Assembly (NCBI GenBank): GCA_021796015.1
Contig: JAJYOT010000034.1
Coordinates: 1 to 19,926, forward strand
Source of the DNA: a bacterium
GTDB lineage: Bacteria > Elusimicrobiota > Elusimicrobia > UBA1565 > UBA9628
Direction of reading: 5' to 3'
DNA: 19,926 nucleotides
Below, in pieces: positions 7,208-16,355 of this stretch. Position 1 is the stretch's first letter. Each line of letters begins with the position of its first letter. The notes under the pieces were generated by a model. That model saw only the letters and a list, made by a program, of their open reading frames with translations. It ran no database searches and was not told the DNA's origin. The position numbers and the translations under genes are program-made.

Positions 7208-7867
7208 ATGAACCATTCTGGCAAGGCCTGGTTGTTCTTTTTACTGACGATGTTGTTTTTCTATTCAGCGGGATATTCTCAAACCTTCGTTCCGGTTTCC
7301 AACGGCAATAATTCAAATAATGGACAACCGTCCCAATTTCCCCAGCTTCAATCCAATCCCTTCGGGAATTCCGGGATGAATAATTCCGCTGATTCTCAAG
7401 CCGTGATGCCGACATCCGTTGGAAATTCGGCGTCTCCCGCGCAGAAAACAGGGGCGCAGGGGGCTGCGCCCAATTCCGCGGCGCCTTCTTTCCCGCACAT
7501 TGCTCCCGCCTCGTCTCCAAAAACTTTTGTTCCGGGATATCACCCGGTCGTGATTCCTCTTGCCACTTCAGGGATGGGTGGAGGAAGCGGCGGTTATGGC
7601 GGAGACAGGTCCGCGGGCGGAACGGGTTATTCTTCAGCGCCAACTTATACCCCTCCCGTGCACGCATCTCCAAAACCCTCTTCCACGACTCCGAAGCCGT
7701 CCTCGGTCGTGATTCCTAATGTGCCTTCAAATGCCCAGAAAGTTAATCCTACCTATGTCCAGCCAAATTCAAATGCTAATGCCGGTTCTATGAATTCTTC
7801 GCCTCAGACCGTCGGGAGCACCAATTTAACCCCGCAGGCTTGCGTAGCCACAGGGGCGTGCAAGTGA
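7208..7867 (+). CDS. Exported low-complexity Asn/Ser/Pro/Gly-rich protein
   Basis: This is a 219-residue protein with a clear signal peptide (hydrophobic WLFFLLTMLFFYSAG, cleavage near residue 24). The mature part has biased composition: Asn/Ser/Gln to about residue 60, Ala/Ser/Pro to about 110, a Gly/Ser/Tyr patch (about 122-142), then Pro/Thr/Ser. The TFVP motif occurs right after the signal peptide and again near residue 106, and VVIP occurs twice (near 114 and 166). Two Cys residues lie close together at the very C-terminus (ACVATGACK). I do not recognise a domain; it resembles disordered surface or envelope proteins. It has its own promoter and a good AAGGAGG. Its stop is one base from the stop of the convergent 7869 gene. 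Confidence 0.75.
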   Translation: MNHSGKAWLFFLLTMLFFYSAGYSQTFVPVSNGNNSNNGQPSQFPQLQSNPFGNSGMNNSADSQAVMPTSVGNSASPAQKTGAQGAAPNSAAPSFPHIAPASSPKTFVPGYHPVVIPLATSGMGGGSGGYGGDRSAGGTGYSSAPTYTPPVHASPKPSSTTPKPSSVVIPNVPSNAQKVNPTYVQPNSNANAGSMNSSPQTVGSTNLTPQACVATGACK

Positions 7868-7868
7868 A

Positions 7869-9452
7869 TTATTGAGGATGAAGCATACGCCGCGCGGCGG
7901 TCTCATCTCCGGTCGCGATACTTAAGAATACGTTCTTAAAAGATTTTCTCTGTGCGTCTAAAGACTTAAGCGCTTGTCCATAAGCGGTCCAGGGAAAGAA
8001 TTCTCGGGCGATTTTGCGCGCCCAGTTTTTCCAGCGCGGTTCCGGCTGATAAAGAGACGCGAGATGATAGGGAACCGAGACGAAATCTTCAATATCGGTA
8101 AAAAGGTGAGGCCGTAACGCGGAGCTTTTTTGCATCAATTGATCGGCCTGGCCGGATTTTTGAGGCCAATGATTGACCAGGTCGGTCAAGGCTTTGAAAT
8201 CGCTTGCGTTGAGGGCGTTGAGGCGGTCAAAAAAACTTTGTCCGCGCGCGAGATATTCTCCGCGTTCTTGATTGGAAACAGGGCAAGCGGCGATGGCTTC
8301 TTTAAGTTGAGGTGAAAGACTTTTTTCTTCTCTAAGGATTTGGCTGATTTCTCCTTCTAAAAATGTCGCATTAATCCACCGGGAAGCTTCTTTCTGGAGA
8401 TTGCCAAGTTGGTGAATAAAGGAAAGAGTGATTTCTTTGGGGTCTTGTGCTTTTTTGGCGAAGGCTGCAAAGGCCGTAAAGGCTTTTTGGGCGCGGGCGA
8501 GGGTTTCTGATTGAATTTGAAAATCCCGTGGAAGAGAAATTCCTTTTTTTTGGGCTTTATCCAACAGAGAAGAAATCGTCGCGGGGTCTTTGGCTTCTTG
8601 ATTGGAGATTTTAATTCCCAATTTCTCGGCTAAGGTCAGGGCTTCTTGCGCGTTGAGACGCAGCTTGAGATTTGATAGATCGTATTTCATTTCATAAGCC
8701 GGATAGGATAGGGTTTTATAATCCAAATATCCCGTGACGATTAACGGGGGCGCTCCAGGAATATTTTCTCTCGCCATTTGGCTTTGAAGGGCGGCCACCT
8801 TGGGAGAATATCCGGATAAATTAGAAGCGCTGAGACGGTTGTAAAAATTTCTTGTTAAAGTCGTGGCGGGAGACTCAGAAGACCCGCCTTTTTGCATTCT
8901 GCGGATAATGGCCTTAGATCCGCTTCCCCGTCCTTCAAAAAGATTATTGAGGATTTCCACTCTCTCTTCATTAGTCATGGTTTTATCGGAAATCATTGAA
9001 CGCTCCGTTTTGGAGGCGCGTTTAAGTTGATAATAGGCGTTGTGGACGGCGTTGGGATTGGGTTCGAATTGGCTTAACTCCTGGTTCATCCGATTTTCAA
9101 AATCATGATTTCCATTGGCGGCGTCGGCCTGAAGACCCAAGCCGATAATCGCTCCCGCTTGGGGATTTTTTAAAAGCCAGGCTTCTATTTCCTTGGTTTT
9201 TTGAAGACTGCTTTTGGAGAGAGAAATTCTATTTCCAATAGAAGATTGAGCGATTCTTTCGGCTATGGCTTTGGCAATCTTGGGGTTTGATTCGATGAGG
9301 CGTTCTTCTTCACTCACTTGTTGATTTAATTGCGCGCTTGTTTGAGCCCGAGCGCAGGGAATAAATAGAAATAATTCTAAGGCGGCAAGGGCCGCGAAAG
9401 AGGCTTTAAAAGAAGCTGAGGTAGCGGTCTTCGTATTCCGGAAAAAGCCCAT
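7869..9452 (-). CDS. Exported protein of unknown function (527 residues)
   Basis: The N-terminus has an 18-residue polar/basic stretch, a hydrophobic core (FAALAALELFLFIP) and a probable cleavage site CARA-Q near residue 36, so the protein is exported. The mature part is soluble and mostly alpha-helical by composition, with many Lys/Glu/Ala/Leu stretches and no further membrane segment. I see no enzyme motif and recognise no family. The ATG at 9452 lies inside the end of the upstream gene (47-nt overlap), which points to coupled expression. No other Met precedes the hydrophobic core, so this start is the most likely. It may work with the upstream gene or the FtsH-like protease, but this rests only on position. 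Confidence 0.75.
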   Translation of the reverse strand: MGFFRNTKTATSASFKASFAALAALELFLFIPCARAQTSAQLNQQVSEEERLIESNPKIAKAIAERIAQSSIGNRISLSKSSLQKTKEIEAWLLKNPQAGAIIGLGLQADAANGNHDFENRMNQELSQFEPNPNAVHNAYYQLKRASKTERSMISDKTMTNEERVEILNNLFEGRGSGSKAIIRRMQKGGSSESPATTLTRNFYNRLSASNLSGYSPKVAALQSQMARENIPGAPPLIVTGYLDYKTLSYPAYEMKYDLSNLKLRLNAQEALTLAEKLGIKISNQEAKDPATISSLLDKAQKKGISLPRDFQIQSETLARAQKAFTAFAAFAKKAQDPKEITLSFIHQLGNLQKEASRWINATFLEGEISQILREEKSLSPQLKEAIAACPVSNQERGEYLARGQSFFDRLNALNASDFKALTDLVNHWPQKSGQADQLMQKSSALRPHLFTDIEDFVSVPYHLASLYQPEPRWKNWARKIAREFFPWTAYGQALKSLDAQRKSFKNVFLSIATGDETAARRMLHPQ

Positions 9453-10080
9453 AATCTTTTAATTTTTTCCCTATGAGCGGCAAGACGCTCTTGTCTCCAG
9501 AAACCGCTTTTTCAAACAAAGACTCGATTTCCCCGCGGCGGCGGTCTTCCTGGGTTTTTTCCGGGTTAAACATCCCGCGCCGTTCCATGTCTCTTAGATG
9601 AATGGGAAAAGAGCGCGCCGATTCGTCAAGAGTAAACTTCATCAAGGCCAAGGACCAGGCCGCGTCCGGGCAACTAATGACCGCTTGATTAGATAATTCT
9701 CGCGCTTTAATATCAGCTTGAATTCGCGAGACGACTTCCTTGGGGGAATCGGAAATCACCTGAACTGAAAAATCTTTATTTTGAAATTGGTATTCAAGGG
9801 CCCTTAAAAATTCCCCGTAGCTGGATTTAAGCCAATCGGCAAATTCACTCGATTCAGGGCCAAAACCCTCAAATCTCTCGGCTAAACCTTGGGGCGTGAT
9901 AATCTGTGGCTTTGAACTTACGACTTCGCCCTTTCTTAAACGTGTTTTATCCTTGAGATCATCAATGGGGGAGATGAGATGATATTCGATATGCGTTGCC
10001 CCAAAGGTGGATAAAATTTTCTTGGGCGACTCGATAATACGCGTGCGCTTTAAATAATTAAAGATGAGAGACTGTTCCAC
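9406..10080 (-). CDS. Conserved-looking soluble protein of unknown function
   Basis: This is a soluble protein of about 224 residues, rich in charged residues, with no signal peptide or membrane segment. Notable stretches are KKILSTFGATHIEYHLISP near the N-terminus, a central CPDAAWSLALMKFTLDE, and a C-terminal KKLKDYGLFPEYEDRYLSFF. I do not recognise the family. The frame can be extended to a TTG at 10095, but a perfect TATAAT lies at 10092-10087, inside that extension. A transcript from it would begin at or next to the GTG at 10080, so I take GTG (VEQSLIFNYLKR) as a leaderless start. No Shine-Dalgarno precedes either choice. The gene overlaps the start of the downstream 7869-9452 gene by 47 nt. 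Confidence 0.7.
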   Translation of the reverse strand: MEQSLIFNYLKRTRIIESPKKILSTFGATHIEYHLISPIDDLKDKTRLRKGEVVSSKPQIITPQGLAERFEGFGPESSEFADWLKSSYGEFLRALEYQFQNKDFSVQVISDSPKEVVSRIQADIKARELSNQAVISCPDAAWSLALMKFTLDESARSFPIHLRDMERRGMFNPEKTQEDRRRGEIESLFEKAVSGDKSVLPLIGKKLKDYGLFPEYEDRYLSFF

Positions 10081-10086
10081 GTCTTT

Positions 10087-10092
10087 ATTATA
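10087..10092 (-). promoter_or_regulatory. -10 box of the 9406-10080 gene, leaderless arrangement
   Basis: TATAAT is followed by AAAGAC and then GTG, so the expected transcription start coincides with the start codon. No -35 hexamer is recognisable because the upstream bases are the terminator stem of the preceding gene. Confidence 0.5.
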
Positions 10093-10093
10093 C

Positions 10094-10116
10094 AAAAAGG
10101 GGGTTGTCCCCTTTTT
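10094..10116 (-). terminator. Rho-independent terminator after the FtsH-like gene
   Basis: A perfect 9-bp inverted repeat AAAAAGGGG/CCCCTTTTT has a 5-nt loop. On the minus strand it begins 1 nt after the TAA at 10118, and the T run ends the hairpin. The symmetric A and T runs mean it could also act on plus-strand transcripts. Confidence 0.75.
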
Positions 10117-10117
10117 A

Positions 10118-13100
10118 TTATTTAGGACGCTGGGCTTTAGGGATTAAGCGGTCGAAGTCCTCTCCTCGGAGGGTTTCTTTTGTCCTCAACTCTTCCGCCG
10201 CGGCTTTAAAAATTTCCCAATTATTTTGAAGGGTGGCGCGAGCCGTCTGATAGGCGTCTTGCACCAGAGATTTGACCTCGGCTTCGATGGCTTTGGAGGT
10301 CGCTTCGCTCATCGGCTTCTGGTTTTGCCGGTCGCCTTCAAACCCATAGCTGACCAGTCCAATTTTGTCGGACATTCCGAATTTCATGACCATGTACCGG
10401 GCGATTTCGGTTGCTTTTTCAAGATCGTTGGCGGCTCCGGAAAAATTCTCTTTCTTTCCATGAATTCTCTCATTTAAAAGTTCTTCTCCCGCGCGTCCGC
10501 CCAAGGCGACGGCCATGCGGGCGACTAAATAAGAGCGACTTTGAATTCTTCTTTCGACATCGGGCACGGCCTGCATAAGCCCCAAGGCGTTGAGGCCATG
10601 CGGGACGATCGTCACTTTGCGAATGGGATCGGAATCCGGCAAGAGATGGGAAACAAGCGCGTGTCCGGCCTCATGATAGGCGACGACTTCTTTCTCGTCT
10701 TCCGGCATGACGAGTTTTCTTTCCATTCCCAGTTGGACGCGATCGATGGAGGAAATAAAATCGGCTTGGGAAAGGGCAACGCCCCCGCGCTTGATGGAAG
10801 CGGAAGTCGCTTTCATGACCAAGCTTTCCATGTCCGCGCCGGAGAACCCGGCCGTTTGCCGGGCGATTTCTTTAAGGTTCACGGTCGAATCGAGAGCGAT
10901 TCCTTGGGTGTGGACCTTGAGAATCCCTTCTCTTCCCAAAACGTCCGGAAGTCCGACGGGAATCTGAAGTTCGAGACGTCCGCCGCGGGTCAAGGCGGGA
11001 TCGAGAGACTCGGGTTTATTGGTCGCTCCGATGACGCTGACATTGTTTTCAGTTTTAAATCCGTCGATGGCGGTCAAGAGCTGGTTGACCAAGGCGTCTC
11101 CGCTGCCGTTTAAATCCGATCCACGGGCGCGGGCGATTGCGTCGATTTCGTCGATGAAAATGATGGCCGGCTTTTTTTCTCTTTTCGATTCGTAGGAGGC
11201 GGCGTCGAAAAGATCCCTGACCGCTTGCGGCCCCTCGCCGACGAATTTCTTAAGGAAATCGGTTCCATCCACTTTGAAGAAAAGAGCTCCCGATTCTTTC
11301 GCGATGGCCCGGGCCATCAAGGTTTTTCCCGTTCCCGGAGGTCCGAATAAAAGCGCTCCTCTAAGAGGGCGAAATTGGGGGTTAATCTCAAGATAGCGAG
11401 CCCGGTTTTTGATTTGATTAACCAGTTCCGCGACCTCGGCCTTGGCTTCATCTTGGCCCGCGACCTGATCAAACCCGGTCGTGATGGTCTCAGGGTCCTC
11501 GAATTGAACGGAAAGGGCGGATGAACTGTTGGAACTGTCGACGGCTTTGGCCTTTTTGTTGATATTTTCTTTGATACTCTCAACCGCTTTTTCAATATCA
11601 GTTTGGGAGATAAAATCAGATTGCGCTTCGTCAACGGCAATTTCAGTCGCTTTTTGGGCGACGGCCTCAAGATCGGCGCCCGAAAACCCCGTGGTTTTTT
11701 CCGCGATTTTATGGAAATCAATCTCAGGGGAAAGACGAGCTTCCTTCAAATGCAATCGCAAAATGCTTTCGCGGCCTTGGATATCCGGATTTTCAAGCGC
11801 AATATGGGTTCCAAAGCGTCCTGAGCGCTTAAGAGCCTTATCGAGTTTTCCAAATTCATTGGTAGCCCCGATGATGAGAATGTTGTAATCCGGCCCCGAC
11901 AACTTATTCATTTCAGTTAAGAGGGCGTCAATGGTCATTTGCTTTTCGTGATCCGCCCCGCTGTCGGCCGTTCCGCCGCGGCTACCGAAGCCGTCGATTT
12001 CATCGATGAAAATTAGGGAAGGCTTTCCCGACTTTTTACTTTGTTCTCGCGCTTTTTCAAAAAATTTGCGCACGGCATCCGGACCGACTCCGACAAATTT
12101 ATTCATGAAAGAAGCGCCGTCGGTCTTGAAAAAAGAATCCTTGTCAAGCTTAAGTTCTCCCGCGACGGCTTCGGCCAACAAAGTCTTTCCCGTTCCCGGA
12201 GGGCCTACCAGGAGAAAGGCATTGCGAGGTTTAAACCTTGCGTTTATATTTCTGTACTTAGAAGGAGACTCAAAGGCCGAAACAATTTTCCGCACCTCGG
12301 CTACGGCTTTGTCTTGTCCCGCGACATCGGCGAATGTGAGAGTGGACGCGGGAGCGTTTTCGTCCTTTTGCTTGGCGGCGCTGGTCTTCCAAACCTTGCT
12401 TCGGGCGTTTTTCCAGTTAGAAATCTTTTGGCGGACATTGCCGCCAAATTTTTTCCAGACCCAATAAGTGAAGGCGACGGCGGCGGCGGTGAGAACAAGA
12501 TGGGTCAGGCCGCTTGCGCCGAAAAGGGAAGTTAAAATGGAGTGGTGAGCCGGCGCGTTTTGCGGAGTTTGAAGCGGGGCCGCGATAGCGCGGGAAATGC
12601 CCGTTAAAGAAGCGACGGTTCCTGCCACAAAACCGACTTGACGCCAGGGCTTTAGAGAGGAAATCGTTTTTGCGGCGCGCGCTTTTGAAACTGGAGGCTC
12701 TTTGCGGCTTGCGAAGCCTTGGGAATGGTCAAAAAATCGCGTAAGGTTGCCGGCGAGGTTTTCCTTTTTGACAGAGACGGTTTTTTTCGCGTATTTGATG
12801 ATCCCTGAAATTTGATGTCTGATTTTCCGAATTGGGTTTTGTTTTGTCGTTAGCGTTTGAGGGATAGCAGAAGCCTCAAGTTTTAACGTAGGGTTTTGAA
12901 TGAATGATGCTTGGGGCGTCTCAAGCGTTTTTTCATTTGAAGTATTGACTTGATTAAGTTCTTCGTTTGATATAGGAGTTGCGGACTCTATATTAAGAGG
13001 AGATTGAGTAAGATTGAGAACTTGCGGGGAGTTCTCAGCATGAAAGGAAGTCTCCAAACTGCCCGCGAAAAGAGGGCCGGGCGCGCAGAGGGCCGCCGCG

Positions 13101-13126
13101 ATGACCAGGGCGATTAATTTTTTCAT
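10118..13126 (-). CDS. FtsH-like membrane zinc metalloprotease with two tandem AAA domains
   Basis: This 1002-residue protein has a signal peptide or first membrane segment (3-21) and a non-canonical exported/linker region, basic at about 95-165. A possible hydrophobic stretch (164-183) is followed by a clear membrane segment (about 207-224). AAA module 1 has Walker A 308-315 (GPPGTGKT), pore FVG 344-346, Walker B 371-378 (LIFIDEID), sensor N423 and Arg fingers R434/R437. AAA module 2 has Walker A 595-602, FVG 628-630, Walker B 655-662 and R714/R717. A C-terminal M41 peptidase has HEAGH 818-822 and third zinc ligand D901. All catalytic residues are intact. Canonical FtsH has one AAA module and about 600-650 residues, and degrades membrane and regulatory proteins. 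Both modules have the FtsH-type pore motif, so a duplication is more likely than a fusion to another AAA class. Confidence 0.93.
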   Translation of the reverse strand: MKKLIALVIAAALCAPGPLFAGSLETSFHAENSPQVLNLTQSPLNIESATPISNEELNQVNTSNEKTLETPQASFIQNPTLKLEASAIPQTLTTKQNPIRKIRHQISGIIKYAKKTVSVKKENLAGNLTRFFDHSQGFASRKEPPVSKARAAKTISSLKPWRQVGFVAGTVASLTGISRAIAAPLQTPQNAPAHHSILTSLFGASGLTHLVLTAAAVAFTYWVWKKFGGNVRQKISNWKNARSKVWKTSAAKQKDENAPASTLTFADVAGQDKAVAEVRKIVSAFESPSKYRNINARFKPRNAFLLVGPPGTGKTLLAEAVAGELKLDKDSFFKTDGASFMNKFVGVGPDAVRKFFEKAREQSKKSGKPSLIFIDEIDGFGSRGGTADSGADHEKQMTIDALLTEMNKLSGPDYNILIIGATNEFGKLDKALKRSGRFGTHIALENPDIQGRESILRLHLKEARLSPEIDFHKIAEKTTGFSGADLEAVAQKATEIAVDEAQSDFISQTDIEKAVESIKENINKKAKAVDSSNSSSALSVQFEDPETITTGFDQVAGQDEAKAEVAELVNQIKNRARYLEINPQFRPLRGALLFGPPGTGKTLMARAIAKESGALFFKVDGTDFLKKFVGEGPQAVRDLFDAASYESKREKKPAIIFIDEIDAIARARGSDLNGSGDALVNQLLTAIDGFKTENNVSVIGATNKPESLDPALTRGGRLELQIPVGLPDVLGREGILKVHTQGIALDSTVNLKEIARQTAGFSGADMESLVMKATSASIKRGGVALSQADFISSIDRVQLGMERKLVMPEDEKEVVAYHEAGHALVSHLLPDSDPIRKVTIVPHGLNALGLMQAVPDVERRIQSRSYLVARMAVALGGRAGEELLNERIHGKKENFSGAANDLEKATEIARYMVMKFGMSDKIGLVSYGFEGDRQNQKPMSEATSKAIEAEVKSLVQDAYQTARATLQNNWEIFKAAAEELRTKETLRGEDFDRLIPKAQRPK

Positions 13127-15579: not shown

Positions 15580-15909
15580 ATGGCGCGCTTAGACGGAAAG
15601 GAGATGGAGTCCGTTCGGAGCGTTTTAAATTCAATTCTCGCTGATTTTCCGGGCTCGCGCGTTTGGCTGTTCGGGTCCCGGGCCAAGGAAAATGCGCGCG
15701 GCGGCGACATTGATTTTCTCATCGAGATCAAGGTCCCGGTCCGGGACGCGGCGGATTTAAAGAGAAAATGGGCGCGTCTCTTTAAAGACAGGATGGGGGA
15801 GCAAAAAATAGATATTGTCCTTAAATACCCGGGCGCCAAACCCAGCAGTTTTTACGATTTGGCCAAAAGCGAGGGAGAAATTATTTGGAGCCATCCAAGA
15901 CCGAGCTGA
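15580..15909 (+). CDS. mntA: MntA-type nucleotidyltransferase antitoxin
   Basis: This 109-residue protein has a minimal nucleotidyltransferase domain: FGSRAKENARGGDIDFLIE gives the GSx(9-10)DxD motif (G32, S33, D43, D45), and a third acidic residue is D78 in KIDIVLKY. In characterised MntA/HepT pairs the antitoxin transfers AMP groups to a Tyr of the toxin and so inactivates it. The gene overlaps hepT by 25 nt, the usual arrangement for this toxin-antitoxin type. It has its own promoter with the start codon at the predicted transcription start. All catalytic Asp residues are present, so activity is expected. The ATG at 15576 is out of frame. Confidence 0.88.
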   Translation: MARLDGKEMESVRSVLNSILADFPGSRVWLFGSRAKENARGGDIDFLIEIKVPVRDAADLKRKWARLFKDRMGEQKIDIVLKYPGAKPSSFYDLAKSEGEIIWSHPRPS

Positions 15910-16355
15910 AAAAGAAGTATCTTGCGGAGCAGTTGGAGGCGGCGCGCCGGGCCGTCAATGCCTTGACCTTGTCCCATGAATCTCTTCAGGCAAAATATCC
16001 TTTTCCGCATTCCTTGTCCAACGAACTAGACGAGAAGTTGGAATCTTTGACCTCGCGCTTCGCGCGCTTGACCGATATCTTGACGCAGAAAGTTTTCCGC
16101 GCCATAGACGCTCTCGAGCTCGAAAATGAAGGGACTTTGCTCGATCGCTTAAACCGTATGGAAAAGCGCGGAGTGATTTCCTCGGCTTCTCTTTGGCGGG
16201 ATATTCGCGATTTGCGCAATCAAATATCGCATGACTATTTGGAGGATGAAATCGAATCGTTGAGAAACGGCGCGTTTAAATACTGCCCCGATTTGTTCGC
16301 CGCGTTTAAATCCGCCGAGTCCTACGCGCGAAAAATTCTGGAGCGCGATGAATAA
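15885..16355 (+). CDS. hepT: HepT-like HEPN-domain ribonuclease toxin
   Basis: This is a 156-residue all-helical protein. The C-terminal half carries the HEPN active-site motif RNQISH (R111 to H116) followed by D117-Y118, giving the Rx4HxY pattern known from HepT. There Arg and His make up the RNase site and the Tyr is AMPylated by MntA. The TTG start at 15885 is supported by GAGGGAG (15871-15877) inside mntA, 7 nt upstream. The N-terminal 40 residues are charged and helical. The last 8 bases (ATGAATAA) contain the start codon of carA, so toxin translation ends inside the carA start region. The toxin looks intact. Confidence 0.85.
   Translation: MEPSKTELKKKYLAEQLEAARRAVNALTLSHESLQAKYPFPHSLSNELDEKLESLTSRFARLTDILTQKVFRAIDALELENEGTLLDRLNRMEKRGVISSASLWRDIRDLRNQISHDYLEDEIESLRNGAFKYCPDLFAAFKSAESYARKILERDE

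Follow-up and report, generated by a model that had tools for sequence, protein, structure and literature searches.

Each chain of FtsH carries one AAA module, as two publications state (PMC12048511, PMC2674469), and two AAA modules per subunit are described for Cdc48 and ClpA (PMC7226402 and PMC6176779). Here we describe a gene from a 19,926-nucleotide stretch of Elusimicrobiota DNA (contig JAJYOT010000034.1 of assembly GCA_021796015.1), hereafter called the window, whose product joins two AAA modules to a single M41 peptidase and so departs from the one-module rule for FtsH that a first-pass annotation of this DNA had rightly stated. The best explanation of the whole, to which we assign a probability of about 0.72, is a tandem-duplicated FtsH-type M41 protease, probably anchored in the membrane, in which two stacked AAA rings would feed one peptidase ring.

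The first-pass annotation had placed two full AAA modules and one M41 peptidase at 10118..13126. Pfam and motif analysis showed its coordinates and residue numbers to be correct, the strand being minus. The open reading frame (ORF) runs from an ATG at 13126 to a stop ending at 10118 and encodes 1002 amino acids (aa), in which Pfam detects two stretches of AAA, two of AAA_lid_3 and one Peptidase_M41 (residues 806-994). Each AAA module displays a Walker A motif (at 308 and 595, respectively), after which come FVG, Walker B, the sensor-1 residues ATN and the Arg fingers (R.GR). The HEAGH at 818 is the sole zinc motif of the chain. The features of the gene, from the start of the protein to its end, are the following:

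10118..13126, minus strand: tandem-AAA M41 protease, 1002 aa, ATG start (ORF, Pfam)
13064..13126, minus strand: signal-peptide-like segment, residues 1-21 (hydropathy peak within 1-26; by-eye reading)
12527..13063, minus strand: putative exported N-terminal region, residues 22-200 (no NCBIfam match, no Pfam match over the cut-off, low model confidence)
12458..12526, minus strand: probable transmembrane helix, about residues 201-223, then K/R-rich (hydropathy peak 196-224; modelled helix 205-252)
11567..12340, minus strand: AAA module 1, about residues 263-520 (Pfam, profile search)
12182..12205, minus strand: module 1 Walker A GPPGTGKT, residues 308-315
12089..12097, minus strand: module 1 pore loop FVG, residues 344-346
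11999..12016, minus strand: module 1 Walker B, residues 371-376, with D375 and E376 invariant (alignment)
11816..11827, minus strand: module 1 Arg-finger motif RSGR, residues 434-437
11489..11536, minus strand: linker joining modules 1 and 2, residues 531-546 (model of low confidence at 529-539)
10727..11488, minus strand: AAA module 2, about residues 547-800 (Pfam, profile and structure search)
11321..11344, minus strand: module 2 Walker A GPPGTGKT, residues 595-602
11237..11245, minus strand: module 2 pore loop FVG, residues 628-630
10976..10987, minus strand: module 2 Arg-finger motif RGGR, residues 714-717
10145..10711, minus strand: Peptidase M41 domain (PF01434), residues 806-994 (Pfam, 186 bits)
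10661..10675, minus strand: zinc motif HEAGH, residues 818-822 (motif)
10424..10426, minus strand: D901, taken as third zinc ligand (invariant in alignments)

H818, E819, H822 and D901, together with the key ATPase residues of both modules, are invariant in all 6 aligned rows (window protein included), in agreement with the HEAGH and D901 reported earlier. As in FtsH, we take D901 to be the third zinc ligand. On the evidence of its sequence, the protein is an M41 AAA protease with a predicted HEXXH plus Asp zinc site.

The same layout was found in 5 database relatives (P0003-P0007, with identities of 53-83%), besides the identical entry P0002. We also searched 294 genomes of the phylum to which genome G003, an Elusimicrobia genome, belongs, scoring two candidates per genome, a procedure that a divergent tandem copy could escape. 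The tandem protein was recovered in full in 3 genomes (G001-G003), was truncated where the contig stops in 1 (G004) and was represented in a fifth (G005) by a C-terminal fragment only. The other phylum matches listed under the chosen threshold comprise only the module 2 and M41 part. Five genome loci were compared, of which L001-L003 are full length, L004 is cut by a contig end and L005 holds the last 106 residues only. In G005, what remains of the tandem protease is its final 106 residues (L062:7833-7516), set within a 208-residue frame on a different contig from locus L078, which is described below. The first half of this frame has no Pfam match. A transposase read by eye ahead of the broken copy was not borne out, Pfam having found only M41.

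An artefact of assembly or gene calling, in which two ftsH copies were collapsed or joined, is extremely improbable, because independent copies of the tandem layout exist: it recurs in other assemblies at 53-85% identity. A misassembled repeat in particular is very unlikely because modules 1 and 2 of the window protein are only 42.5% identical; moreover, a single M41 domain is present.

Selection was estimated on six pairs of four genes by the Nei-Gojobori method, using our own script. The ratio of nonsynonymous to synonymous substitution rates (dN/dS) was 0.042-0.074 in module 1, 0.023-0.057 in module 2, 0.039-0.085 in the M41 domain and 0.23-0.34 in the N-terminal region, values that are rough since dS exceeds 1 for several pairs. 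The least saturated pair (L065/L066) gave 0.042 and 0.057 for modules 1 and 2, respectively. Both AAA modules are under strong purifying selection, and the constraint on module 1 is about equal to that on module 2 and the peptidase.

The origin of module 1 was addressed with profiles, trees and a sequence insert. When the modules were profiled separately, as had been suggested, the FtsH model was the best match for each, with 248 bits for module 1 and 284 bits for module 2. The PAN profile scored 198 and 238 bits and the CDC48 profile 154 and 210 bits, respectively. The whole protein reached 709.6 bits against TIGR01241 (cut-off 600), a score that sums two stretches corresponding to both AAA modules, and 366 bits against TIGR01243 (Cdc48), below the cut-off of 802.65. 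Two trees of 60 and 82 AAA modules were then compared, with Cdc48 and VAT as outgroup; the divergent M41 paralogues of 603-607 aa (L015, L021-L023) are outside both trees, their module having been missed by the motif pattern. Module 2 falls inside FtsH, in agreement with its profile and structure matches, and residues 542-996 of the full-length model match FtsH structures in a structure search. In both trees the rows of module 1 and those of module 2 fall into a clade each, and both clades join L059 and L060, two single-AAA M41 proteins of Elusimicrobiota, with supports of 97/91 and 96/90. The 82-module tree splits the tandem-family modules from the four Cdc48/VAT modules with 100/99. Furthermore, a stretch of 37 residues separates a conserved glycine from Walker A in 19 of the 20 modules of ten family rows (the remaining one being without the motif), as well as in L060 and in the two modules of L028, an additional copy. 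This spacing is 35 residues in 604 of the 618 modules of other rows, nearly all of which are without the two-residue insert. Because of the trees and the shared 37-residue spacing, we favour, without regarding it as proven, a tandem duplication of an FtsH-type AAA module within one Elusimicrobiota lineage.

Several results weigh against this origin. In approximately unbiased (AU) tests, module 1 could be grouped with Cdc48/VAT (p 0.195), with actinobacterial modules (p 0.102) or with the long-N-terminus paralogues (p 0.108) without rejection, nor was a grouping of L059/L060 with module 2 to the exclusion of module 1 rejected (p 0.062). In the 82-module tree, modules 1 and 2 as sisters without L059/L060 obtain a support of just 81/45, and module 1 sits on a long branch, the stem of its clade being 1.01 versus 0.55 for module 2. 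L059 has the ordinary spacing of 35. Finally, a structure search with the module-1 model does not separate FtsH from Rpt/PAN/p97 folds. The duplication that the first-pass annotation had read from the shared FVG motif is thus favoured by profiles, trees and the shared insert and stays unproven, the AU tests leaving other partners for module 1 with p from 0.10 to 0.20. Alternatively, module 1 might not be a duplicate of module 2 but have come from another AAA protein, through fusion to a gene of the Cdc48 or PAN kind or to another FtsH-like one. We consider this quite improbable: the top profile match of module 1 is FtsH (248 bits versus 198 for PAN and 154 for CDC48), the 37-residue spacing is common to both modules, and supports of 96-97 join modules 1 and 2 with the two single-AAA Elusimicrobiota proteins. 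A Cdc48- or PAN-type source as such was set aside on its lower profile scores, yet the AU tests do not exclude it.

The region preceding the modules had been described as unlike that of usual FtsH, and the searches agree. Residues 1-254 alone gave no NCBIfam match and no Pfam match over the cut-off, FtsH_ext included, the sole one shown being MnhB with 13.9 against a cut-off of 22.5. Read by eye, residues 1-21 combine a K-rich start, a hydrophobic core and APGPLFA. A weaker hydropathy peak than those listed above is found at residues 164-185, and the predicted local distance difference test (pLDDT) of the model is below 50 over residues 1-206. We infer that the N-terminal region lies outside the cytoplasmic membrane and that the AAA modules and the peptidase are cytoplasmic. 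An alignment of seven rows of this region matches 5 of the 294 phylum genomes. In G005, two genes beside ychF start with the same N-terminal module (48% and 46% identical over an aligned stretch of 254 residues). In the first (L078:1246-2214) the module is followed by ankyrin repeats, and in the second (L078:2603-8149) by an M50 stretch (33.3 bits, cut-off 27.2) and further by two domains, one a ClpB-like AAA (AAA_2, 218 bits), the other an FGE-sulfatase (97 bits). Because it also fronts ankyrin and M50/Clp-like proteins, the N-terminal module looks exchangeable, as judged from this one genome.

By analogy with known motors, the working of such a protease can be proposed as follows. Six chains would assemble into a hexamer in which two AAA rings are stacked between the membrane and one M41 ring. 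The module 1 ring, being membrane-proximal, would meet the substrate first and grip it via its FVG loops, then pass it to ring 2 and on to the peptidase chamber. Unfolding requires the aromatic-X-Gly pore loop, according to PMC5511170. Ring stacking, serial threading and substrate entry from the membrane side are proposed by analogy with FtsH and with the double rings of Cdc48 and ClpA.

Other observations speak against this stacked motor. DGF, the motif by which FtsH subunits signal to one another, is present in module 2, whereas module 1 has NKL at this position. Because module 1 is without DGF, ring 1 may be coordinated differently, i.e. more loosely between subunits, or may be mainly structural. 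The FVG of module 2 is replaced by LQG in P0007. Overall confidence in the full-length monomer model is low (pLDDT 67.4, predicted template modelling score 0.43), and the topology is drawn from hydropathy only. Module 1 could then be a structural or regulatory ring, holding the hexamer or sensing the substrate while module 2 alone threads; p97 D1 and NSF D2 have been discussed as rings of this kind. The DGF missing from module 1 and kept in module 2 fits such a role, as does the longer stem of the module 1 clade (1.01 versus 0.55). We nevertheless judge it unlikely, given that the ATPase, pore-loop and Arg-finger residues of module 1 are retained in 6 of 6 aligned rows, that its purifying selection is about equal to that of module 2, and that the changed pore loop of P0007 belongs to module 2. 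Two threading rings upstream of one peptidase ring are the arrangement that we prefer.

M41 proteins with several AAA modules also occur outside this family. Three protein searches with multi-AAA queries, each retaining the best 120 of about 8000 scored proteins, yielded 305 proteins, a set that is enriched for multi-AAA forms and gives no measure of frequency. Motif patterns served to count the architectures; degenerate modules can escape such a count, and the window protein enters it twice (P0001 and P0002). One M41 is preceded by two AAA modules in 57 proteins, by three in 100 and by four in 4 (161/305 together). The order AAA-M41-AAA-M41 was counted in 40/305, the ordinary layout in 101/305 and other patterns in 3/305. 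The source names of the multi-AAA proteins include Acidimicrobiales, Thermoleophilia, Solirubrobacterales and Chloroflexi, and their annotations read for example 'AAA family ATPase' or 'ATP-dependent zinc metalloprotease FtsH'. P0122, P0123, P0008, P0009, P0238 and relatives, with three or four AAA modules, extend up to 1493 aa. Some proteins of about 1400 aa with three detected modules have room for a further degenerate one. Two complete AAA-M41 units lie head to tail in P0012, P0265-P0267, P0278-P0280 and others; those of these fusion proteins that bear a species name are from dinoflagellates.

In the 82-module tree, modules cluster by group: the tandem family stands with its two single-AAA relatives, the actinobacterial group and P0301/P0302 are each supported by 100/99, the P0009/P0238 group by 95/95 with P0013 as its sister (96/86), and P0008 by 98/90. 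The backbone forks among groups are weak (e.g. 94/72, 84/71). A single origin of all first modules was rejected, with a log-likelihood 200.5 lower and p 6.6e-73; the groups of this test were the tandem family, the actinobacterial group, P0009/P0238, P0008 and P0013, with P0301/P0302 left out. The clustering of modules by group suggests independent duplications, and the simplest reading of the sequences is at least five separate AAA expansions in M41 proteins. P0258 (860 aa) displays two nearly identical FtsH-type AAA modules, which may stem either from a duplication of very recent date or from an error of assembly, and was left out of this five-group count. A broader proposal, to which we give an even chance, is that M41 proteases repeatedly, in at least five lineages, built taller motors with two to four AAA modules in the chain for stacked-ring extraction, and that the N-terminal module of this Elusimicrobiota clade is an exchangeable receptor, a single outside sensor connected to various effectors inside the cell.

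All 5 of the genomes G001-G005 also hold a frame of 608-610 aa for ordinary FtsH, together with further M41 matches. The tandem protease is therefore an additional enzyme beside ordinary FtsH in the relatives that carry it. In the family of G003, M41 matches occur in 43 of 44 genomes, several of them in long frames. Thirteen long-frame M41 regions of this family gave 12 readable frames (none for L109), all 12 with a single AAA module and 9 with a signal-peptide-like start as read by eye. L055-L058 and L098-L108 together are one-AAA M41 frames of 787-1286 aa, and 11 of these 15 have such a start by eye. Because long single-AAA frames often display a signal-peptide-like start, the exported N-terminus looks like a habit of the family; the second AAA module would be the addition of this clade.

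The two genes downstream of the tandem gene are the following:

9406..10095, minus strand: 229-aa ORF, next gene downstream (no Pfam match)
7869..9452, minus strand: 527-aa ORF, overlapping the 229-aa ORF (no Pfam match)

Both adjoin the tandem gene in L001-L003 and its fragment in L005. They were matched in 60/294 (229-aa gene) and 41/294 (527-aa gene) phylum genomes, most of which are without the tandem gene. A functional link was considered and is not claimed, as both genes occur mostly without the tandem gene. The ychF gene adjoins the tandem gene in the window and in L001, and no match to it was found in L002 or L003. On the plus strand of the window, an ORF at 7208-7867 rich in P, S, N and G, with a signal-peptide-like start, lies opposite the start of the ndk ORF, and a relative of it (63-64% identity) follows the 527-aa gene in L002 and L003. 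Also on the plus strand, 15580-15909 and 15885-16355 form an overlapping pair encoding a minimal nucleotidyltransferase (PF01909) and a HepT-like protein (22.9 bits, just below the cut-off of 23.5). This pair resembles MNT-HEPN toxin-antitoxin systems and is 94-97% identical in L001.

The first-pass annotation had suggested that the architecture would be new. In the open literature we found no M41 protease described as having several AAA modules, a coverage that leaves out most subscription papers and all bioRxiv preprints; nor does one appear in the accessible parts of PMC10490939, PMC6017811, PMC6176779, PMC5515868, PMC7226402, PMC12048511, PMC2674469, PMC6210556 and PMC5511170. Only PMC2674469 brings together FtsH, M41 and 'two AAA domains', and it presents FtsH as having one AAA domain. 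In its original form the novelty claim is not supported: the layout extends beyond the window gene, as the 161 proteins counted above show. Structure searches listed no double-ring FtsH, which is not evidence of absence.

The repeated duplication of AAA modules across M41 proteases is a more interesting result than the single gene. FtsH is regarded as a weak unfolder, and a natural series of 1, 2, 3 and 4 AAA modules on the same kind of peptidase makes it possible to ask what an extra ring buys, the candidate gains being more pulling force, a firmer hold on substrates in the membrane or a gate for regulation. Such a series would further mean that in-chain duplication has given rise again and again to double-ring motors, familiar from Cdc48, NSF and Clp, in a second AAA family.

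Compared with known systems, the window protein resembles FtsH, m-AAA and i-AAA (M41, TIGR01241) in its FtsH-type AAA followed by M41, its HEAGH plus Asp, its FVG and the membrane segment before the AAA part. It differs from canonical FtsH in having two AAA modules instead of one and, in place of two transmembrane segments around FtsH_ext, a signal-peptide-like start, one clear transmembrane segment and a clade-specific region that is probably exported. With Cdc48/p97, VAT and ClpA/ClpC it shares two AAA modules per chain, and VAT (5vc7) aligns loosely over both modules (residues 262-851, 502 aligned, root-mean-square deviation 6.7). Those motors work with a separate protease, whereas here motor and zinc metallopeptidase stand in one chain and the modules look FtsH-type. 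The single-AAA M41 proteins of the same Elusimicrobiota family (L055-L060, L098-L110) have a similarly long, variable and often signal-peptide-like N-terminus before AAA and M41, but lack the second AAA module (12/12 such frames with one). Like the M41 proteins with two to four AAA modules from Actinomycetota and other sources, the window protein places several FtsH-type AAA modules before one M41, although the modules cluster by group and a common origin of the first modules was rejected. Finally, it shares two FtsH-type AAA modules in one chain with the FtsH-FtsH fusions (P0012, P0265 and others), where each AAA has its own M41, whereas in the window protein both modules precede a single M41.

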